In this document: piece after piece, positions 3,001 through 35,445 of the stretch | Layout of the letters: every line of letters starts with the position of its first letter | Position numbering within the stretch: the first letter of the stretch is position 1 | Source: Candidatus Eisenbacteria bacterium | GTDB lineage: Bacteria; Eisenbacteria; RBG-16-71-46; SZUA-252 | DNA length: 39,151 nt | NCBI GenBank assembly: GCA_005893305.1 | Contig: VBOZ01000013.1 | Span: forward strand, 54,008 to 93,158 | Direction: 5' to 3' | Position numbers and translations under genes: made by a program | Notes under the pieces: generated by a model | The model's input: the letters and a program-made list of their open reading frames with translations, nothing else | What the model was told of the DNA's origin: nothing | Database searches by the model: none

Positions 3001-6000
3001 CCGGGGTGAGCACCGCGCGGCCGGCCTCGAAGGAGTCCCCGGTCATGGTCATGGAGATCGACGTGCCCCGATCGACACCGAAGGCGCGGCGCGGACCACA
3101 TACCTCCAAACCGTCCGCGTAGGTGACCCGAAGCTGATATTCGTAGACGGCGCCTCCCACGAGGCCAGACGACCCCGATCCGGTTCCGTCCCAAGGGCAC
3201 ACGCGCGGGGGGGCTCCCGGTCCCTTGGCTGACCAGAGGACCGCTCCCTTCTGATCGCGGACGTCCAGGGTCCAGTCGCGAACGGTGGACGTGTCGCTCG
3301 CGTTGAGGGCGAATACCGCCGGCTCCCGAAGGCGATCGCCGTCGAGACGCACCACGTCGTTCAGCCCGACGGACGTGAGGCTCGCTTCGACGGCACGGAG
3401 GCGAACGGCCACCCCGTTCACGACGAGGGCGGCACGGAGCGCGTTTCCGGCGACGACCACGCTTCGATCCATTTCGTCGGTCACGATCGCGACGCCGCTC
3501 ACGGGTGGACGGCCGATCTCGAGCGAGTCCCGCTGGAAGGAGACCCCAAATCGAACCGAAGTGAGCAGCCCCGGCGAAACGTAGGCGACCGGTGCGATCT
3601 CCGTCGTCGCGGTGGCCGGAAGGCCGAATCGCTCCAGATCGAGCTTCACGACGTGCGGACCCGGATCGAGGTCGGGAAGGTGGAACCGCCCTTCGGCGTC
3701 CGTGCCGACGGAGGTCCCGTCGTCGAGCATCACGACCGCTCCGGGAAGGCCCCTCTCGTCGCGGCCCTGAAGACCGTCTCGATTGGAATCCTCGAAAACG
3801 CGCCCCACCACCGTGCCGCGAGAGAGGAGCGCGTCTTCGTCCACGTGGACGGTCGCCTCCGCCCGGTTCGAGGCCCCGCAGGCGGAGCAACCGGCGAAGG
3901 CGGACGCCGCATCCACATAGGAGCCAGGCGTCGCGCTGGCGCCCGGCACGAGCACCCAGCTCAGGGCGATATATCCCGGCTCGCCGGGTCCGGCTTGGCC
4001 GTCCCCATTCAGGTCGGTGAACGCCGCCAGCGTGTCGAGGGCGAACCGCTGGACGCCCGATCCGGACGGATCGGCAATGACACGCCCGTCCCGCGTCGAG
4101 CTGCCGGGGAGGTATCCGAATCGTGGAGGCAGCTCGTTCTGAACTTCGAAATTGGCGAGATTGACCGACGTGCGATTTCGAATTTCCAAGGTGTAGCGCA
4201 CCGGCTGGCCGGACTCGACCCGATCGCGGTTGGGCGTCAGCCGGAGGTCGACCGCGAAGCTCGTGTCGTCGTCCAGGTTCGTCACTCCCACGTCCGGCGC
4301 GTTCCGGGTGTTGTAGCTCGCGTCCGTGCTGGTCGCGGCCGCCGTCACGATCGTGTACGCCACGTTGCCGTCGACCCCGAAGTCGTCCACACCGGTGACG
4401 GTTGCCGTCTGCGCCGTGTTCCAGTTGCCGGGCGTGAAGGTCAGGGAGGCCGGAGCGACCGTCCCTTCGCTCAGATCGCTGGACGAAAGCCCGATCGTCA
4501 CGTTCGCGGTCGGCTGCGTGTCGAGCACCACAGTGAACGTCGCGGTCCCGCCGGCTTCGGTCGTCGAGAGCCCAGAGGTCGGGGCCACCGTGATCCCCGG
4601 TGTGTCGTCATCCGTATTCGTCACCGCGGCGTCCGCCGCGTTGAGCCCGTTATAGCTGCCGTCGGTGCTGGTCGCCGCCGCCGTCACGATCGTGTAGGCC
4701 ACGTTGCCGTCGACTATGGGATCGTCGACACCCGTCACCGTCACCGTCTGTGCCGTGTTCCAGTTCGCGGGCGTGAAGGTCAGGGAGGCCGGAGCAACCG
4801 TCCCCTCGGTCAGATCGCTCGAAGAGAGTCCGATCGTCACATTGGCCGTGGGCTGAGTGTCGAGAATCACGGTGAACGTCGCGGTACCGCCGGATTCTGT
4901 CGTCGCCAGGCCGGACGTCGGCGTCACCGTGATCCCCGGCGTGTCGTCGTCCGTGTTCGTCACCGCCACGTCCGCCGGGTTGAACCCGTTGTAGACCCCG
5001 TCCGTGCTGGTCGCGGCAGCCGTCACGATCGTGTATGCGACCGCGCCGTCGACCACGGGGTCGTCGACCCCGGTGACCGTCACCGTCTGCGCCGTGTTCC
5101 AGTTGCCCGGGGTGAACGTGAGGGACGCGGGTGCCACGGTCCCCTCGGTTGGATCGCTCGAGGAGAGCCCGACCGTGACATTCGCGGTCGGTTGGGTGTT
5201 GAGCACGATCGTGAACGTCGCCGTCCCGCCCGATTCGGTCGTCGTCAGGCCGGAGGTGGGCGTCACCGTGATCCCCGGCGTGTCGTCGTCCGTGTTCGTC
5301 ACGCCGACGTCCGCGGCATTCATTCCGTTATAGATCCCGTCCGTGCTGGTCGCCGCCGCCGTCACGATCGTGTACGCGACCGGGCCATCGACCCCGAAAT
5401 CGTCCACGCCAGTCACGGTTACCGTCTGGGCGGTGTTCCAGTTCCCCGGGGTGAACGTCACCGACGCGGGCGCCACGGTCCCCTCGGTCAAATCGCTCGA
5501 GGAGAGCCCCATCGTGACGTTTGCGGTCGGTTGACTCGTGAGCGCCACGGTGAAGGTCGCGGTCCCGCCCCCCTCAGTCGTCGTCAGGCCGGATGTCGGG
5601 TTCACCGTGATCCCAGCCGTGTCGTCGTCCGTGTTCGTCACGCCGACGTCCGCTGCGTTCCGCCCGCTGTAGTCCGGGTCCGTGCTGGTCGCCGCTGCCG
5701 TCATGATCGTGTACGCGACTGCGCCGTCGACCCCGAAGTCGTCGACGCCGGTCACGGTCACCGTCTGCGCCGTGTTCCAGTTGCCCGACGTGAATGTCAC
5801 CGAGGCCGGGGCCACCGTCCCCTCGGTTAGGTCGTTCGACGTAAGCCCGATCGTCACGTTCGCGGTCGGCTGGCTCGTGAGCGCCACCGTGAAGGTCGCG
5901 GTCCCGCCCCCCTCCGTCGTCGTCAGACCCGATGTCGGGTTTACCGTGATCCCCGCCGTGTCGTCGTCCGTGTTCGTCACGCCGACATCCGCCGGATTCA

Positions 6001-9000
6001 TTCCGTTATATATCCCGTCCGCGCTGGTCGCCGCGGCCGTCACGATCGTGTACGCGACCGGCCCGTCGACCCCGAAGTCGTCCACCCCCGTCACGGTCAC
6101 CGTCTGCGCCGTGTTCCAATTCCCCGACGTGAACGTCACCGACGCAGGCGCGACCGTGCCCTCGGTCAAATCGCTCGAGGAGAGTCCGATCGTCACGTTC
6201 GCGGCCGGCTGGCTCGTGAGCACCACGGTGAAGGTTGCCGTCCCACCGCCCTCCGTGGTGGTCAGGCCGGAGGTCGGAATCACCGTGATCCCAGCCGTGT
6301 CGTCGTCCGAATTCGTCACGCTGACGTCGGCGGCGTTCCGCCCGCTGTAATCGGGGTCCGTGCTGGTCGCCGCAGCCGTCACGATCGTGTACGCGACAGG
6401 TCCATCGACCCCGAAGTCGTCCACGCCAGTCACGGTTACCGTCTGGGCGGTGTTCCAGTTCCCCGGGGTGAACGTCACCGACGCGGGCGCCACGGTCCCC
6501 TCGGTCAAATCGCTCGAGGAGAGCCCGATCGTCACATTCGCGGTCGGCTGGCTCGTGAGCGCCACCGTGAAAGTCGCGGTTCCGCCGCCCTCCGTGGTCG
6601 TCAGGCCCGACGTCGGAATCACGGTGATCCCGGCCGTGTCGTCGTCTGTGTTCGTCACGCCGACGTCCGCCGCGTTCCTCCCGCTGTAATTCCCGTCGGC
6701 GCTGGCCGCCGCAGCCGTCACGATCGTGTACGCGACAGGTCCATCGACCCCAAAGTCGTCGACCCCGGTCACCGTCACCGTCTGCGCCGTGTTCCAGTTC
6801 CCCGAAGTGAACGTCACCGAGGCCGGGGCCGCCGTCCCCTCGGTCAAGTCGCTCGACGAGAGCCCGATCGTCACATTCGCGGTCGGCTGGCTCGTCAGCA
6901 CCACGGTGAAGGTCGCCGTCCCGCCCCCCTCCGTCGTCGTCAGGCCGGAGGTCGGAATCACGGTGATCCCTGCCGTGTCGTCGTCCGTATTCGTCACGCC
7001 GACGTCCGCCGCATTCCGCCCGCTGTAGTCCGGGTCGGTGCTGGTCGCCGCAGCGGTCACGATCGTGTACGCCACCGCCCCGTCGACCCCGAAATCGTCG
7101 ACGCCCGTCACCGTCACCGTCTGCGCCGTGTTCCAGTTCCCCGACGTGAGCGTCACCGACGCCGGGGACACCGTCCCCTCGGTCAGGTCGTTCGAGGAGA
7201 GCCCGATCGTGACGTCCGCCGTCGGCTGACTCGTGAGCGCCACGGTGAAGGTGGCCGTTCCGCCCCCTTCGGTGGTCGTCAGGCCTGAAGTGGGGATCAC
7301 CGTGATCCCAGCGGTATCGTTGTCCGTGTTCGTCACGCCCACGTCCGCGCCGTCCCTCCCGCTGTAGCCCGGGTCCGTACTGGTCGCCGGGGCCGTCACG
7401 ATCGTGTACGCCACCGCACCATCCACCCCAAAGTCGTCCACTCCGGTCACCGTCACGGTCTGCGCCGTGTTCCAGTTTCCCGACGTGAACGTCACCGACG
7501 CAGGCGCGACCGTGCCCTCGGTCAAATCGCTCGAGGAGAGTCCGATCGTCACATTCGCCGTCGGTTGGCTCGTGAGCGCCATCGTGAAGGTGGCCGTCCC
7601 GCCCCCCTCCGTGGTCGTCAGGCCGGAGGTCGGAATCACCGTGATCCCCGCGATGTCGTTGTCCGTATTCGTCACGCTCACGTCCGCAGCGTCCCGCCCG
7701 CTGTAGCCCGGGTCGGTGCTGGTCGCCGGGGCCGTCACGATCGTGTACGGCACGTCGCCGTCCGCGACGAGGTCGTTCACCCCTGTGACGGTCACGGTCT
7801 GCGCCGTACTCCAGTTCCCCGCCGTGAACGTCAGCGAGGCCGGAGCCACCGTGCCCTCGGTCAGGTCGTTCGATGAGAGCCCGATCGTCACGTTCGCCGT
7901 CGGTTGGCTCGTCAGCGCCACGGTGAAGGTCGCCGTCCCGCCCGCCTCGGTCGTGGTCAGACCGGAAGTCGGGTTCACCGTGATCCCGGCGATGTCGTTG
8001 TCCGTATTGGTGACGCCCACATCCGCCGCGTTCCGGCCGCCGTAGTTCGGGTCCGTGCTGGCCGCGGCAGCAGTCACGATCGTGTACGGCACGTCGCCGT
8101 CCGCGACGAGGTCGTTCACGCCTGTGACGGTCACGGTCTGCGCCGTGTTCCAGTTTCCCGCCGTGAACGTCAGCGACGCGGGCGCCACGGTCCCCTCGGT
8201 CAGGTCGTTCGATGAAAGGCCCATCGTCACGTTCGCCGTCGGCTGGCTGTCGAGCACCACGGTGAACGTCGCGGTTCCGCCCGCCTCGGTCGTCGTCAGC
8301 CCCGAGGTCGGTGACACCGTGATCCCCGCGATGTCGTTGTCCGTATTCGTCACGCTCACGTCCGACCCGTTCTCCCCGTTGTAGCTGCCGTCGGTGCTGG
8401 CTGCCGGAGCGGTCACGATCGTGTACGGCACGTTGCCGTCGACGACGAAGTCGTTCACGCCCGTGACCGTCACCGTTTGGGCCGTGCTCCAGTCCGCCGG
8501 CGTGAATGTCACCGACGCGGGAGACACCGTCCCCTCGGTCAGGTCATTCGACGAGAGCCCGATCGTCACGTTGGCCGACGGCGGGCTATCAAGCACGACG
8601 GTGAACGTCGCGGTTCCGCCCGCCTCGGTCGTCGTGAGACCGGACGTCGGGTTCACCGAGACCCCCGGGGCAAGGATCACGAGCTGACCCAACGCCGGAT
8701 AGGTCGTGGTGTCGTAGGCGAGCCACATATCGTTGCCCGAGGCGGGCCCGACTTCCAGCTTGAAGCCGACCGACTTGCCGGGGCCCAGCGTGTAATTCAC
8801 GAATCCGAAATTGAACGTGTCCTGAATCCAGGTGCCGGTATCGCTCACGTCCCAATCGGGCCGGGTCACGGTCGCCGAGGCGATCTGGACGCAGCCGGTT
8901 CCGTTGTTGTTGCACTCGACGAGATAGCCGACCAGCGAGCCGCCGGCGCTGATGTTGAAGTTGTTCACGGCGGTCCAGATCGTGTTGGACACGAGGCCGT

Positions 9001-27964: not shown

Positions 27965-28458
27965 TCCGGCTTCTCTCCCCGCATCACGCCTCGGATCTCC
28001 CGCCGCGCCCTCCTCTCGTCGAGCTTCGTGCGCTTGTCGTAGTTCTTTCTGCCCTTCGCGAGGGCCAACTCCACCTTCACTCTGCCGTCACGAAAGTAAA
28101 GGGAGAGCGGGATGAGCGTGAGTCCTTTCTCCTCAAGCTGCGCGCGGAGGCGCTTGATCTCCATGCGGTGCATGAGCAGCCGGCGCGCGCGCGTCGGCTC
28201 GTGATTCTCGTAGCTCGCCGGATCGTAGGGGCTGATGTGGGCGTTGCGGAGGTAGAGCTGGTCGGTCTCGACGGTGGCGTACGCGTCGACCAGGTGCGCC
28301 TTGGCGTCGCGGAGTGACTTGACCTCGCTGCCCCGCAGCTCAATCCCCGCCTCAAAGGTCTCGATCACCGTGTAATCGTGCCGCGCCTTCCGGTTCGTGC
28401 AAATGATCTGGCGCCCGTCGTCGCCCTTCTTGGCCTTCGGCGCCGAGCCCCGCAGCAT
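27961..28458 (-). CDS. smpB: SsrA-binding protein SmpB
   Basis: 165 residues; GGGAGGA lies six bases before the ATG. It binds tmRNA and brings it to stalled ribosomes. Seen: ICTNRKARHDYTVIETFEAG, ELRGSEVKSLRDAKAHLVDA, LYLRNAHISPY, and the basic C-terminal tail KGRKNYDKRTKLDERRA with GVMRGE. First gene of a minus-strand operon (smpB, amidase, gerM-like, murI, rph, rdgB), nearly all overlapping. No tmRNA gene was seen in the window. Confidence 0.97.
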   Translation of the reverse strand: MLRGSAPKAKKGDDGRQIICTNRKARHDYTVIETFEAGIELRGSEVKSLRDAKAHLVDAYATVETDQLYLRNAHISPYDPASYENHEPTRARRLLMHRMEIKRLRAQLEEKGLTLIPLSLYFRDGRVKVELALAKGRKNYDKRTKLDERRARREIRGVMRGEKPE

Positions 28459-28474
28459 CGCATCCTCCCTGAGA

Positions 28475-28503
28475 TTGACTCGCCCTCGCGAGCCGCCTAT
28501 ATT
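28475..28503 (+). promoter_or_regulatory. Sigma-70-type promoter of tRNA-Leu
   Basis: TTGACT (28475-28480), 17 bases, TATATT (28498-28503), 33 bases before the tRNA. It starts just outside smpB and points away from it. Confidence 0.85.
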
Positions 28504-28536
28504 AGCGTGTTCCGGCGCGAATTCGAAGCATTCGGT

Positions 28537-28621
28537 GCGGAAGTGGCGGAACTGGTAGACGCGCTGGGTTCAGGGTCCAGTGTCGCGAGACGTAGGGGTT
28601 CGACTCCCCTCTTCCGCACCA
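28537..28621 (+). tRNA. tRNA-Leu (CAG)
   Basis: Acceptor GCGGAAG pairs with CTTCCGC; anticodon arm CTGGG-TTCAGGG-TCCAG gives CAG. A long variable arm (TGTCGCGAGACGT) marks a class II tRNA. CCA is encoded at 28619-28621. 85 bases with CCA. Confidence 0.97.
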
Positions 28622-28839
28622 CATCGACGCAGCGGCACCCGCGCGTCGCGCGAAAATCGCGCCCGCCGCGTAACGAATCTGCAAACCGGATCGGCGGTCT
28701 GCATCGATTCCTCTGGCCGGCCGCGACCAATCCCCTCCCGCTTCTCCGCATCCCGATGCTCTTTTCAAGCCATATAGCGTCCTGCGACGCGCTCAACCGC
28801 TTGATCCCAACCGGATCGGCGCGCGGCGCCGCGCGATGG

Positions 28840-28873
28840 GCAATCTGCATGGAATCCCGGCACGGCGGCTGCA
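28840..28873 (+). promoter_or_regulatory. Sigma-54-type promoter with conserved upstream box (Ig-protein gene A)
   Basis: A 17-base box GCAATCTGCATGGAATC (28840-28856) is followed after two bases by GGCACG, four bases, CTGCA: GG at 28859-28860 and GC at 28871-28872, the 12-base -24/-12 spacing. The same box, spacing and element precede gene B at 32288. A predicted start of transcription near 28884 leaves a leader of about 60 bases before ATG 28947. The rest of the 28622-28946 gap shows no gene. Confidence 0.65.
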
Positions 28874-28946
28874 TTGGCCGGAATCGGTCGGGAGTGTTTC
28901 CTCCTCCATTCTGGTGAGACACCCCATGCGGACTCTAGGAGGACTC

Positions 28947-31900
28947 ATGAAGGCACCACTCAAGCTTCTGGCACTGAGCCTGCTCATCTTATTCGTGCCG
29001 TTCGCGACGGCTCAGGCCCAGGCACCTTCGCTGTCCACCATTCCGAACATCAGCGTGAATGCTGGCGCGACGGTGATCGCGAACGTGGTCGCGGTCGACC
29101 CCCTTGGCCGCAATATCACCCTTACCTCCTCACTCCCGTCCTTCGTGACGCTGAACACACCGACCTCCGGAGTCGGGGTCATTGTCACCACCTTGACGCT
29201 GGCTCCCGGCGCCATCAACGTCGGCAATTACACCGCCGCGGTGACCGCGTCAGCGGGAGGGGTGACGGACATCGAGATCTTCGGGATCACCGTCAACACA
29301 TCGGGCACGAACCAAGTGCCTGTCGTGAGCGCTCCTCCTCTGCGGGAAGTGACAGAGGGTTCGAATCTCAATTTCACCATTGGCGTGAGCGATGCCGACG
29401 GAGACCCCGTCGAAGCCTTGTACACCTCCATACTCCCCGTCGGAGCCACATTCACCCCGAATGGCTCGAACACGTCGGGGACGTTCAACTGGACGCCGGG
29501 CTTGGGAGATCACGGCGAGTACGACATCCGGTTCACGGCGATGTCCATGACCGGCACCCTGGGCGCCGCGGTGACGCACATTCGCGTCGCGGCGGCACCA
29601 ACGCTCACGATTACTCCGATCGATGATGTCACCTTGGCGGACGGCTCCAATCTCTCGGTGCCGGTAAACGCGTCCGGCCCGGCGGGCGTCCTCATAACGC
29701 TCCTAGGGTCGCTCCCGTCGTTCGCGACCCTGGAGGCGCCAGGCTCAGGCTTGGGATCCGTGAGCACCTCGATCTCACTGGCTCCTCCGGTGGGAAGCGC
29801 GGGCACCTACCATGCTTCGATCACGGCCAGCTCCAGCGGAGTTCCGCCGGTCATCGAGAACTTTGACATCATCGTCACGGGCACGGTCGGAGGCGAGAAC
29901 CACCCGCCGGTCCTGACGGCTCCTGCGAGCGAGACGGTCGCGATTGGTTCCACCCTGACCTTCAGTGTGAGCGCGACCGATGCCGACGGAGATCATGTCG
30001 ATCTCTTCCTCAGCGGCCAGCCGCCCGGATCGAGCTTCGTGGATCACGCGAATAACACTGGGACCTTCACCTGGAGCCCGATTTCCGGCCAGGGTGGTAC
30101 GCACACGGCGTCGTTCAGCGGGACCGACGGACACGCCGGTGGCTCGGGTTCCGCGAGCACGGTGATCACGGTAACGGGAGATGCTCCGCAGAACCACGCG
30201 CCTGTATTGAGCGCTCCGTTGACTCAGCAGGTGGCCGAGGGCGTCAACCTCGCGTTCACGGTGACCGCCACCGATCAGGACGGCGATCATGTGACCCTCA
30301 CGGCGAATTCGGTCCCCACCGGGGCCACGTTCGGCGATCAAGGGAACAACACCGGAACCTTCTCATGGACGCCGGGGTCGACGCAGTCGGGCCTCTATAA
30401 CGTGGCGTTCAACGGCAGCGACGGGAACGGCGGCACCGGTACGGCGAGCACCGCCATCACGGTGACGGGCCCTCCTCCCGAGAACCACGCGCCGGCGCTG
30501 AGCGCGCCGTCCACGGAGCAGGTGGACGAGGGCGTCATTCTTTCGTTCACGGTGACCGCCACCGATCAGGACGGCGATCATGTCACCCTCACGTCGAATT
30601 CGGTGCCCAATGGAGCCGCGTTCTCCGATATGGGGAACAACACCGGGATCTTCTCGTGGACACCCGGCTCGACGCAGTCAGGTCTCTATGACGTTGCCTT
30701 CAATGGCGGCGACGGGCACGGCGGCACCGGTACGGCGAGCACCGCGATCACGGTGAACGACGTCGCCGCCGAGAACCACGCGCCGGTGCTGAGCGCGCCG
30801 TCCACGGAGCAGGTGGACGAGGGTGCCAGCCTCTCATTCGCGGTCACGGCTACCGATCAGGATGGCGATCACGTCACCCTCACGGCGAGCTCGGTCCCCA
30901 GCGGGGCCGCGTTCTCGGATCAGGGTGACAATACCGGCGTCTTCTCGTGGACGCCGGGATCGACGCAGTCCGGCGTCTATAACGTGGCGTTCGCGGGCAG
31001 CGACGGCCGCGGCGGCACGGGCACCGCGAATACGGCCATCACCGTCAACGATGTCGGCGGTGGAGACGTACCTGGAAAAGCGTGCCTCATCGCGAGCTTC
31101 AAGTCCAAGGACGACGCGACCTGCTTCCGGATCCGGCCGGTCAACAAGTCCTTCGACCTTCGTGACGTCGTGCTGTCCAGCATTACGTTCGTGTGGCACG
31201 GCGCGTCGGTGGCGGCGCAGGCGGCCCGGATCGAGCTCCATTGCCATGGTAACGGCGGCCATGACGACGGCGGCAACGACGCCGCGGCGATTCACTTGAA
31301 CGGCGATCATCCTCACGGCGACGGCGAGGGTGAGAACGACGACGACGACGATGCGGACCACGATTGCGGCGGCGTGGTCTGTGGCGAGCACGGTGGGAAC
31401 AACGACCACCATGGCGATGGCAACGGCGGCAACTGCGATACGCTCGGCATCCGCGCGTGCTTCTCGACGCGGGCCCTCCTCGAAGTGCTGGCGGGAGCGA
31501 AGATGCCGTGCGACCTGGTCCACGCCGAGATCCACGCCACGCTGACGAGCGGCGGCACGGTCGTGGCCACGTTCGGCAAGGACAGGGACTCCGACGACGG
31601 CGAGGTCTGCGACAAGGGCAAGGACAAGGGCAAGGACGAGGACAAGGGCGGCAACAAGGACGGCGATAAGGACAAGAACAAGGGTGGGGACCACCAGACC
31701 GGTGCGCAGGCCAAGGCCGGCATGAACCCGATGGTCCGGCCGAACCCGCTCAACCCGATGACGGAGCTCTTGTTCACAACCTCGCGCGCGGGCACGGTGC
31801 GCGTGACGATCTATGACAGTCGGGGCCGGCTCGTGAAGTCCCTGCTGGAAGAGTTCCGCAGCGCCGGCCTGCAGAGGATGGCGTGGGACGGCTCGAACTC

Positions 31901-31991
31901 GCGGAGCCAGAAGGTCGCCTCGGGCGTGTACTTCTTCCGGATTGAGGCGGCCGAAGGACAGATGATCAAGCGGGTCGCGGTCGTTAAGTAG
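28947..31991 (+). CDS. Secreted Ig-like repeat protein with FlgD-like C-terminal domain
   Basis: 1014 residues from the ATG at 28947 (AGGAGG four bases upstream). Signal peptide to about 24 (cut after AQA). Three Ig-like domains of mixed type come first, then four tandem cadherin/putative-Ig repeats of 97-98 residues (DNA 29898-31065; NHAPVLSAP, VTATDQDGDHVTLT, GTFSWTPGSTQSG). Next is a unique Cys-containing domain broken by a His/Asp/Gly-rich stretch (about 764-830) and a Lys/Asp/Gly-rich stretch (about 887-918). The end (about 926-1014) is a FlgD-like Ig domain (PNPLNPMTELLFT, YDSRGRLVKSL, DGSNSRSQKVASGVYFFRI, KRVAVVK), the type that serves as sorting signal for type IX-like secretion in FCB bacteria. 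Probably a surface or released adhesin; function unknown. Confidence 0.9.
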   Translation: MKAPLKLLALSLLILFVPFATAQAQAPSLSTIPNISVNAGATVIANVVAVDPLGRNITLTSSLPSFVTLNTPTSGVGVIVTTLTLAPGAINVGNYTAAVTASAGGVTDIEIFGITVNTSGTNQVPVVSAPPLREVTEGSNLNFTIGVSDADGDPVEALYTSILPVGATFTPNGSNTSGTFNWTPGLGDHGEYDIRFTAMSMTGTLGAAVTHIRVAAAPTLTITPIDDVTLADGSNLSVPVNASGPAGVLITLLGSLPSFATLEAPGSGLGSVSTSISLAPPVGSAGTYHASITASSSGVPPVIENFDIIVTGTVGGENHPPVLTAPASETVAIGSTLTFSVSATDADGDHVDLFLSGQPPGSSFVDHANNTGTFTWSPISGQGGTHTASFSGTDGHAGGSGSASTVITVTGDAPQNHAPVLSAPLTQQVAEGVNLAFTVTATDQDGDHVTLTANSVPTGATFGDQGNNTGTFSWTPGSTQSGLYNVAFNGSDGNGGTGTASTAITVTGPPPENHAPALSAPSTEQVDEGVILSFTVTATDQDGDHVTLTSNSVPNGAAFSDMGNNTGIFSWTPGSTQSGLYDVAFNGGDGHGGTGTASTAITVNDVAAENHAPVLSAPSTEQVDEGASLSFAVTATDQDGDHVTLTASSVPSGAAFSDQGDNTGVFSWTPGSTQSGVYNVAFAGSDGRGGTGTANTAITVNDVGGGDVPGKACLIASFKSKDDATCFRIRPVNKSFDLRDVVLSSITFVWHGASVAAQAARIELHCHGNGGHDDGGNDAAAIHLNGDHPHGDGEGENDDDDDADHDCGGVVCGEHGGNNDHHGDGNGGNCDTLGIRACFSTRALLEVLAGAKMPCDLVHAEIHATLTSGGTVVATFGKDRDSDDGEVCDKGKDKGKDEDKGGNKDGDKDKNKGGDHQTGAQAKAGMNPMVRPNPLNPMTELLFTTSRAGTVRVTIYDSRGRLVKSLLEEFRSAGLQRMAWDGSNSRSQKVASGVYFFRIEAAEGQMIKRVAVVK
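29898..31065 (+). repeat. Four tandem 97-98-codon Ig-like repeats
   Basis: The start NH.PVL recurs at 29898, 30192, 30483 and 30774, that is 294, 291 and 291 bases apart. Copies 2 to 4 are nearly identical in many stretches (VTATDQDGDHVTL, FSWTPGSTQSG, GTGTASTAITV), which points to recent duplication. Confidence 0.9.
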
Positions 31992-32015
31992 GCCGACCCC
32001 TACGGGGGTCAAGAG

Positions 32016-32060
32016 CGGGCGGGGCGCCACACAGCGTCCCGCCCGTTTCGCTTTGTCGCT
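32016..32060 (+). terminator. Rho-independent terminator
   Basis: CGGGCGGGGCG (32016-32026) pairs with CGTCCCGCCCG (32035-32045) with one G-T pair, followed by TTTCGCTTTGTCGCTTTT. It lies 25 bases after the Ig-protein gene A stop. Confidence 0.9.
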
Positions 32061-32287
32061 TTTGCTCGGGGGGTGCGTGCCGCCTGGGACTGGGTCCGAG
32101 CGTTGGAGCTTGAATCTGCAACGTTACGACCCCTCCCACGTCGCGGCATGCACCGGATAATCCGACCCGGCGCGGCCGGATTCTTCAAGGTCCCCGGATT
32201 CTCTGGTCGAATTTGAGCCGTCGTTGCAGGCTGCGGCTCCGCGAACGCTGCGCCGCATAGGGATCGGGGACCTGGTGTGCGCGCGGC

Positions 32288-32321
32288 GCAATCTGCATGG
32301 AATCGCGGCACGCCCCCTGCT
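32288..32321 (+). promoter_or_regulatory. Sigma-54-type promoter with conserved upstream box (Ig-protein gene B)
   Basis: The box GCAATCTGCATGGAATC (32288-32304) is base for base that of gene A, two bases from GGCACG, four bases, CTGCT: GG at 32307-32308, GC at 32319-32320. A predicted transcription start near 32332 leaves a leader of about 105 bases. The 445-base gap between the two genes holds only the terminator and this element. Confidence 0.65.
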
Positions 32322-32436
32322 TCGTACTGAAGTGGTCCGTACTGCGTCCATCCCCGGACGCATCATCGCTGCGGTTGGACCGGTCGGGTCCGATCGTGGG
32401 AAGAGAGCGGGCAAACCGTACTCAGGGAGGTTCGTC

Positions 32437-35400
32437 GTGCGCCAAGGACTTCGCGTGGCTCAGGCGGGAGCGTGGCTCGCTCTGGCCCTGGCCGTCCAAC
32501 TTAGCGCGGCCCCCGCGATCGCGGGACCGTTCTCACGACTACAAGTGTTGCTTCCCGGAGAGACAGCCGCTCCCGGAACGCCTTCGGGCAAGACCGGAAC
32601 CCCGACAGCCCAAACCGCGGGCATTCCTTTCTACGCCACGGTCCGCGCGTGCGACTCTACCTGGACGCTCGTGTCCACGGTGACACACACGATTCGGATC
32701 CTGTCTTCGGACGCCAGCGCTTCACTCCCGGCCGCGGCTCAGCTCGTCGGCGGAACGGGCGACTACCTTGTGATCCTGAACGCCGGCGGCAACTTCACGA
32801 TCTTCGCGCATGACCAGTCGGACGTCACGATTCCCGATGGGTCCAGCTCCTTGGTCCGATCGATCGTCCTTCAGAGCCTCGAGATTTCGAACATTCCCAA
32901 GAACCAGACGGCCGGTGTCCCGATCTCGGTCTCGATCACGGCCAAGGATCCGAATGGCGACGTCGTGAGCGGGTTCTCTGGAAACGTGCAGCTAAGCCAG
33001 CTCACCAGCTTCGGCGCGGGCCGAATCACGCCCCCCACCGTGAGTCTTGCCTCGGGCCAGTGGAGCGGCAACGTCACCGTCTACCGCGCCGATGAGACTT
33101 CCCCGACCACCGGAAACGTATTCGTCGCGGCCGCAGTTCAGGGACATCCGTCTCAGAGCGGTTCCAGCAACGGCTTCGTCGTCAGCCCCGGCCCGTTCCG
33201 TCGGGTGCAGATCGTGGCGCCGGGAGAATCGCCCCTCCCCGGTAGCCTGAACGGTATCACCGGCGTGCCCGCGAGTCAGGCGGCCGGCCAGGGATTCACG
33301 GTCAACGTCTACGGGACCGACAACTATTGGAATCAAGTTTCGAGCGGTGACGCCGTTCAGGTCGCGTCGTCGACCGATCCGGCCGACACGCCGGCGACGG
33401 GCAGCCTTACGGCGGGTTTCCGTCAGTTCACCTACACACTAATGACGGTGGGCACGCAGACACTGACGGTGACCGATCAGAGCAACGGAAGCATCGCGTC
33501 GATGACGAGCGCCGGGATCCAGGTGATCCCGAACGCGACGGACCACTTCTCGTTCGCCGCGATAGCGTCTCCTCAGGTCGCGGGCGTGCCGGTCACGGTC
33601 ACCGTCCGCGCGACCGACTCGAGCGGGAATACCGTCTTTGACTACAACGGCGATGCGGTCCTGGCCTCCAACGCGGGCTCCGGCACCAGCACGCCGAGCC
33701 TGATCACGTTCGTGGGCGGCGTGTGGTCCGGTCCGGTCACGTTTTTCGGAGCCGGCTCCTCCGTGCGGCTCTCGTGCACCGATTTCTCGTCACCGGCCAG
33801 GACGGGAACGAGCGGGAACGTCGTGGTGAATCCCGCCACATTCACGAAACTCCAGGTCATCCTTCCCGGGGAAACCGCGAGACCCGGTACCGCCGACGGG
33901 AAGGATGGGACGCCGGGGAATCAGACGGCGGGGACCTCGTTCCCGATCACCATTCGCGCCGTTGACGCGTACTGGAACGTTGTGAGCGGCATCGGCGACC
34001 ACGTCCAGGTCACCTCGACGGACCCGTTCGCGGGCCTCCCGGCCGACACGACGCTTGTCAGCGGGCAGCTTGTCTTCCAGGGCCGCCTCTATAAGAGCGG
34101 GACGCAGACGATCACCGTGCACGACCTCACCAATACCGGAATCACCGACAATACGTCCGGAGACGTCACGATCGTGGGAGGCGCCTTCACGAGGGTGCTG
34201 GTCTTGGCGCCGGGTGAGTCACCCGCGCCCGGCACCGTGAGCGGCCGCACGGGCGCCGCGCTCGACCAGTCGATCGACTACGCTTTCACGCTCACCGCGC
34301 TCGCCACGGATCAGTGGTGGAACCCGGTGGCGGGACCCACGGACGTGGTGCACATCGCCTGCGGCGACCCGCTGGCGCAGGTCCCTCCGGATCAGGCGAT
34401 GGCGAACGGTCGCGCCGACATGAGCCTGAAACTGGCGACCGGCGGTTTCCAGAACATAACCGTCTCCGACGCTACGAACCCGTCGAAGACCGGGAGCACG
34501 ACGCAGGTGCGAGCCATTTCGAGCGGCTTCCACCTCGAGGCCTCGGTCACCCCGTCCACCACCCGTGCCGGCGACTTCTTCACGCTGACCGTGAAGGTGA
34601 AGAACAACGGCGGAGCTGTGATCACGGAGATCAATTCCTTCGTCACGATCGAGGTACGGAACGCATCCGGCGCGGCGGGGCGCGGAACACTCCTCACGCC
34701 CCAGTTCCAGCTGATCCAGGGCCAGCGCTCGGTATCCGAGACCTACACGTTCAGCGAGCCGATCATCCTGGTCGCGCGCGACGACGCGGGCAACGCGCCC
34801 GCGACGAGCAACATCATCACGATCACGTCCGGTCCGCCGGCGGGGATCCACCTCGCGTCGAGCCCGGCCTGGGTCGGCGGCAACAAGCACGGCACGCTGA
34901 CCGCTAAGGTCGTGGATGCCTATGAAAACGGCGTCCCGGACCGTCCGGTGAGCTTTGCCCTTCTCTCGGGCACCGGCACCCTGACGGCGCAGGACGACTC
35001 CACGGACGCGAGCGGCAACGCGCGGGCCGATTTCCTGAGCCCGCGGATTCAGGAGACGGACCGCATCCGCGCATCGTCCGGAGGGTTCACGCAGGATCTT
35101 GACGTCAAGGTGGCGTACGTGGATCCCACCGCCGCCGGCGGCTACGTCACGAACTATCCGAACCCGTTCCACGCCGGGACCGAGGCCACCACGATCGCGT
35201 ACAAGTTGGACGACTTGGCGACCGTGACCCTCCGCGTCTACACCAACAGCGGCTCCCTGGTGCGCCGCGTGGTCTTCGATCGGGGAGCGCCTGGAGGGAA
35301 TCCCGGACTCAACAACTGGGCCTGGGACGGAAGAAACGGCAAGGGCGAAGTCGTCGCGAGCGGCGGCTACCTCGTGCTGATCGAGGCTCAGGGCCAGGGC

Positions 35401-35445
35401 GGGACGGTAAACGTGATCCGTCGCAAGGTCGCGGTCGTCCGCTGA
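32437..35445 (+). CDS. Secreted modular repeat protein with FlgD-like C-terminal domain
   Basis: 1002 residues from the GTG at 32437 (AGGGAGG six bases upstream; the frame is open further upstream but lacks coding character). Signal peptide to about 29. Four copies of a motif of the form F.RLQVLLPGET..PGT..G..GTP at residues about 30, 252, 467 and 582 each begin an Ig-like domain (VTVRATDSSGN, QTITVHDLTN, W.PV..). An invasin-like domain follows (about 800-900, GTLTAKVVDAYENGVPDRPV). The last 90 residues are a FlgD-like Ig domain (NYPNPFHAGTEATTIAYKL, VTLRVYTNSGSLVRRV, DGRNGKGEVVASGGYLVLIE, RRKVAVVR). Domain order differs from gene A but architecture class and promoter are shared. Probably surface-exposed; function unknown. 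Confidence 0.9.
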   Translation: MRQGLRVAQAGAWLALALAVQLSAAPAIAGPFSRLQVLLPGETAAPGTPSGKTGTPTAQTAGIPFYATVRACDSTWTLVSTVTHTIRILSSDASASLPAAAQLVGGTGDYLVILNAGGNFTIFAHDQSDVTIPDGSSSLVRSIVLQSLEISNIPKNQTAGVPISVSITAKDPNGDVVSGFSGNVQLSQLTSFGAGRITPPTVSLASGQWSGNVTVYRADETSPTTGNVFVAAAVQGHPSQSGSSNGFVVSPGPFRRVQIVAPGESPLPGSLNGITGVPASQAAGQGFTVNVYGTDNYWNQVSSGDAVQVASSTDPADTPATGSLTAGFRQFTYTLMTVGTQTLTVTDQSNGSIASMTSAGIQVIPNATDHFSFAAIASPQVAGVPVTVTVRATDSSGNTVFDYNGDAVLASNAGSGTSTPSLITFVGGVWSGPVTFFGAGSSVRLSCTDFSSPARTGTSGNVVVNPATFTKLQVILPGETARPGTADGKDGTPGNQTAGTSFPITIRAVDAYWNVVSGIGDHVQVTSTDPFAGLPADTTLVSGQLVFQGRLYKSGTQTITVHDLTNTGITDNTSGDVTIVGGAFTRVLVLAPGESPAPGTVSGRTGAALDQSIDYAFTLTALATDQWWNPVAGPTDVVHIACGDPLAQVPPDQAMANGRADMSLKLATGGFQNITVSDATNPSKTGSTTQVRAISSGFHLEASVTPSTTRAGDFFTLTVKVKNNGGAVITEINSFVTIEVRNASGAAGRGTLLTPQFQLIQGQRSVSETYTFSEPIILVARDDAGNAPATSNIITITSGPPAGIHLASSPAWVGGNKHGTLTAKVVDAYENGVPDRPVSFALLSGTGTLTAQDDSTDASGNARADFLSPRIQETDRIRASSGGFTQDLDVKVAYVDPTAAGGYVTNYPNPFHAGTEATTIAYKLDDLATVTLRVYTNSGSLVRRVVFDRGAPGGNPGLNNWAWDGRNGKGEVVASGGYLVLIEAQGQGGTVNVIRRKVAVVR

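Follow-up and report, generated by a model that had tools for sequence, protein, structure and literature searches.

Two neighbouring genes of the uncultured soil bacterium Candidatus Eisenbacteria, here called A and B and encoding large secreted surface proteins, are each preceded by the same sequence box set against a sigma-54-type -24/-12 element, and the arrangement probably represents a real, conserved and narrow gene-control circuit at these two genes. The features lie in a window of 39,151 nucleotides, which is the whole stretch of DNA analysed (Table 1). The first-pass annotation had described an identical box before both genes, two bases from GGCACG-N4-CTGC with correct GG/GC spacing; indeed, both copies are exact, lie on the forward strand and keep that distance and spacing. 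In the genome, which comprises 2.75 Mb in 39 contigs, there are just two exact copies of the box, and each is followed two bases later by such an element. No further copy with fewer than three mismatches was found in the whole genome, and none with three or fewer in the window, where 0.08 were expected.

Table 1. Predicted control sites and genes at promoters A and B (positions of the window).
Feature	Positions	Strand	Sequence or product	Basis or remark
UAS1, promoter A	28678..28683	+	GAATCTGCAAA	181 bases before the -24 GG
UAS2, promoter A	28698..28703	+	GGCGGTCTGCATCG, second TCTGCA	alignment
Dyad, promoter A	28714..28729	.	TGGCC-N6-GACCA	dyad comparison
Conserved block between dyad and box	28805..28819	+	TCCCAACCGGATCGG	alignment
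Box 1	28840..28856	+	GCAATCTGCATGGAATC	exact sequence match
-24/-12 element, promoter A	28859..28872	+	GGCACGGCGGCTGCA (GGCACG-GCGG-CTGC; GG at 28859)	predicted transcription start ~28884
Gene A	28947..31991	+	1014 aa, secreted; Ig repeats (He_PIG/Big_9), FlgD_ig / T9SS type A sorting tail	
UAS1, promoter B	32115..32120	+	GAATCTGCAAC	alignment
UAS2, promoter B	32147..32152	+	degenerate CATGCA	alignment
Dyad, promoter B	32163..32178	.	CGACC-N6-GGCCG	dyad comparison
Box 2	32288..32304	+	GCAATCTGCATGGAATC	exact sequence match
-24/-12 element, promoter B	32307..32320	+	GGCACGCCCCCTGCT (GGCACG-CCCC-CTGC; GG at 32307)	predicted transcription start ~32331
Gene B	32437..35445	+	1002 aa, secreted; Big_1, FlgD_ig tail	

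The -24/-12 pattern by itself is not enriched: with two mismatches allowed, GGCACG-N4-YTGC was found 23 times against 25 expected, and its 12 occurrences in the genome compare with 15 for the reversed control. The case therefore rests on the combination of box and element and on its conservation. The genome does carry rpoN, which the first-pass annotation had suggested looking for, in a single copy (E 6e-62), together with about 19 strong sigma-54 activator domains. A search for conserved RNA with Rfam gave only a tRNA-Leu in 28300-32800.

The same module precedes orthologues of A and B in three genomes of the same family (G003, G006 and G007), and conservation of the box extends to another genus. 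The fixed box touching the -24 element that had been proposed at first was borne out in related genomes. Model R1, built on seven promoters and searched in 59 genomes, recovered its own seven at E values of 1e-12 to 1e-18; no other match fell below 1e-3. A scan with the exact pattern across 84,980 species genomes matched four times in WS_1 and WS_7, both isolates of Candidatus Eisenbacteria, and gave three single matches in unrelated organisms. GGCAY-N5-CTGC is present in all 14 A/B promoters compared, 73 to ~200 bases 5' of the start codon, and its -24 and -12 blocks are near-invariant among them; in nine B orthologues the site was located by this very pattern, within 260 bases, and the position of -129 to -197 from the match start in 10/10 B-type promoters is pattern-located in the same sense. 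In 11 of the 14, the box core CTGCA stands at precisely 14 bases before the -24 GG. Three of these promoters belong to a second family (G028, G035 and G037), where the rest of the box has diverged and promoters are 40-53% identical to those of the first family, the background level being ~40-45%; the chance of CTGCA at one given position is 0.0011. The box has been lost in G001 and G004 and is degenerate before B2, a paralogue of B, and it is thus dispensable. Across the class, CTGCA-N9-GGCAC-N5-CTGC has 14 matches, 10 of which precede A or B, while the remaining four fall inside long open frames, where no promoter context is apparent. A class-wide regulon was rejected, the reversed control giving 17 matches against these 14, so that the pattern alone is unenriched.

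Both proteins end in FlgD_ig domains, as the shared FlgD-like C-termini noticed at first had implied. The tail of A passes TIGR04183 (29.9 bits against a cut-off of 23), and that of B falls below the cut-off. Full-length relatives of B occur in both families and include B2 (66% identity; L197, G000:C32:14000-20500), also in the source genome, which has its own sigma-54-type element and TCTGCA at -192 and whose box reads GTGCA, not CTGCA, at -14. A PorV/PorQ-family gene lies 3' of B in G007 and 3' of B2 in the source genome, and a TPR gene lies downstream in G007 and G003. Elsewhere in the window, a 339-base unit is repeated in tandem at positions 4262-8667 (13 copies, 84% match), which suggests a giant repeat protein. 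The first-pass annotation had also envisaged a dedicated regulon for FlgD-tailed surface proteins, but the box is found only at A and B. The other FlgD-tailed genes matched have no box, and a general FlgD-tail regulon was rejected.

Nor did the view survive that ordinary upstream activator sites are lacking, for conserved predicted sites lie at about -192, -160 and -145 from the -24 element. UAS1 is conserved in orthologues at -191 to -193, and the promoter alignment contains conserved blocks GAATCTGCAA near -192, GCGGTCTGCATGAA near -160 and CCCAACCGGATCGG near -50. UAS2 of promoter B reads TCTGCA or ACTGCA in the orthologues of G003, G006 and G007. A 16-bp dyad, TGGCC-N6-GGCCA, which was recognised post hoc, is found at -144 to -147 in all ten same-family A/B promoters other than B2; in G001 and G004 it is retained with changes in both arms, and its significance there is modest. 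Between -260 and -20, TCTGCA, whose copies near -192 and -160 form direct repeats, was counted 15 times on the promoter strand and not once on the opposite strand against 0.57 expected, although these come from related promoters and are not 15 independent events. The distances are near-fixed and roughly helically phased: UAS2 to box is 145-147 bases in 7/7 promoters where both were scored, and UAS1 to UAS2 is 31-32 bases, or 20 in promoter A of the source genome, about one helical turn less. Sigma-54 enhancers are described as tolerating 10-11 bp indels (PMC4740811).

Promoters A and B share about 190 bp ending at -12. Within each of G000 (the source genome), G006 and G007, their identity is 58-72% from the UAS to -12 and 42-45% just downstream of -12; two different genes have therefore come to share a promoter cassette by duplication or transfer. 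In G003 (L058) and G008 (L133) gene A is absent and B is preceded by the C-terminus of the gene that precedes A in G006 (read by eye); recombination between the twin promoter copies may have removed gene A in these two genomes.

As for the regulator, no activator gene adjoins A or B in the flanks checked. The NtrC-type activator L177/L181, which in two genomes shares a contig with A or B2 at a distance of 18-29 kb, was not supported: G005 carries it but lacks a full-length B, and second-family genomes that do have B gave no match to it at E <= 1e-130. Two activators scanned with the PrsR equivalog TIGR02915 both scored below its cut-off. A pilB-pilT-pilC-pilS-pilR operon (L196, G000:C8:186000-205000), encoding a sensor kinase and an NtrC-type regulator, has an upstream TCTGCA pair and a sigma-54-type promoter. 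The sequence upstream of pilB, TCTGCAAAGAATCCGGCGGTCTGCATCG, resembles the pair of promoter A (0/500 shuffles were as good), the region shares a 14-base identity with UAS2 of promoter A, and TGGCACCCCTCTTGCG lies 98 bases after the second TCTGCA; it has neither the dyad nor the box. With the exact pair pattern, no pilB was matched in eight relatives, although this pattern also fails to detect roughly half of the genuine A/B sites. Because a promoter-A-like TCTGCA pair precedes this operon, PilR is the leading, unproven candidate activator, a link that comes from one operon in one genome.

We favour, with a probability of about 0.5, a model in which duplicate sigma-54 modules drive A and B, each activated from distal sites and tuned by the box, with PilR as the best candidate. 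An NtrC-family activator would bind the dyad, the TCTGCA repeats or both in the distal cluster and loop to the silent, promoter-bound polymerase. The box, which spans roughly -42 to -26 relative to the predicted start, would be occupied by the same TCTGCA-binding protein, for which PilR would be the best single candidate; we argue for one factor because the box core repeats the upstream TCTGCA a third time. Occupation of the box may lower or gate polymerase access, in an operator or 'governor' role. A tuning role is proposed because the box, at this position, falls on the upstream border of the expected sigma-54 polymerase footprint. More doubtfully, an activator-site copy fused to the -24 element might be a built-in limiter in Eisenbacteria, by which PilSR would link T9SS-type surface adhesins with type IV pili.

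It is possible, though we think it unlikely, that the box belongs to a separate dedicated regulator, a repressor or co-activator, in line with the first-pass annotation's suggestion of a different factor, with its likeness to TCTGCA partly a coincidence and the dyad alone serving as activator site. The dyad has the classic form of such a site and survives where the box is lost, pilB has the pair and no box, and the upstream copies are shorter than the box and less constrained; however, TCTGCA is common to the box and both upstream elements on the same strand, and its excess upstream speaks for a shared factor. An extended polymerase contact 5' of the -24 element (UP-like or extended -24), needing no regulator site, would fit a conserved region that touches the element at constant distance. 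We regard this as improbable, since the other sigma-54-like intergenic sites of the source genome have no CTGCA before -24 and G001 and G004 do without it; the box is likewise missing at the other sigma-54-like promoters of that genome, and its role as a general extended -24 was rejected.

The shared ~190 bp and the adjacency of the two genes would also suit a functionless box, identical merely through promoter duplication or conversion, but its retention in another genus and the persistence of CTGCA at -14 in another family, where identity is otherwise near baseline, make this very unlikely. We give still less credence to the idea that GGCAC-N5-CTGC belongs to an operator or to a promoter of another type. 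The lack of genome-wide enrichment speaks for that idea, yet the -24/-12 blocks hardly vary in 14 promoters, rpoN is present, the upstream sites are enhancer-like and no sigma-70-like promoter match occurs in 28500-32450.

Among known systems, the favoured sigma-54 module resembles the PEP-CTERM / PrsK-PrsR regulon (Haft et al. 2006, PMC1569441) in its single-gene surface-protein units, long intergenic regions and sigma-54 element with a conserved upstream motif. In that regulon, however, motif 1 lies ~63 bases 5' of motif 2, whereas here the sites lie at -192, -160 and -145 and touching -24, and membership was rejected when the tail test failed: NCBIfam and Pfam gave no PEP-CTERM tail on the A/B proteins, whose tails are FlgD/T9SS-like. 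At glnAp2, two strong distal NtrC sites are accompanied by closer governor copies that limit output (described in PMC3870243). The combination of distal sites with a promoter-proximal copy is alike, though known here from sequence anatomy alone, and unlike the governor sites the proximal copy keeps a set distance of two bases to -24. PilSR regulons are described as reaching beyond pili, to surface proteins in D. nodosus and to sites in G. sulfurreducens (PMC6058289). PilR acting with sigma-54 on surface-exposed proteins would be the parallel, at candidate level here, and the GTCT elements near PilR sites are matched by GTCTGCA; the difference is that our PilR assignment draws on a single operon of a single genome.

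To conclude, the literature searched described no sigma-54 system in which a site stands at a constant two bases from the -24 element, and nothing on Candidatus Eisenbacteria together with sigma-54. The region upstream of A and B stands as a phylogenetically footprinted sigma-54 control region from an uncultured phylum, and its rigid distances and -24-touching site make it a testable case of whether overlap with the polymerase footprint may tune an enhancer-dependent promoter.
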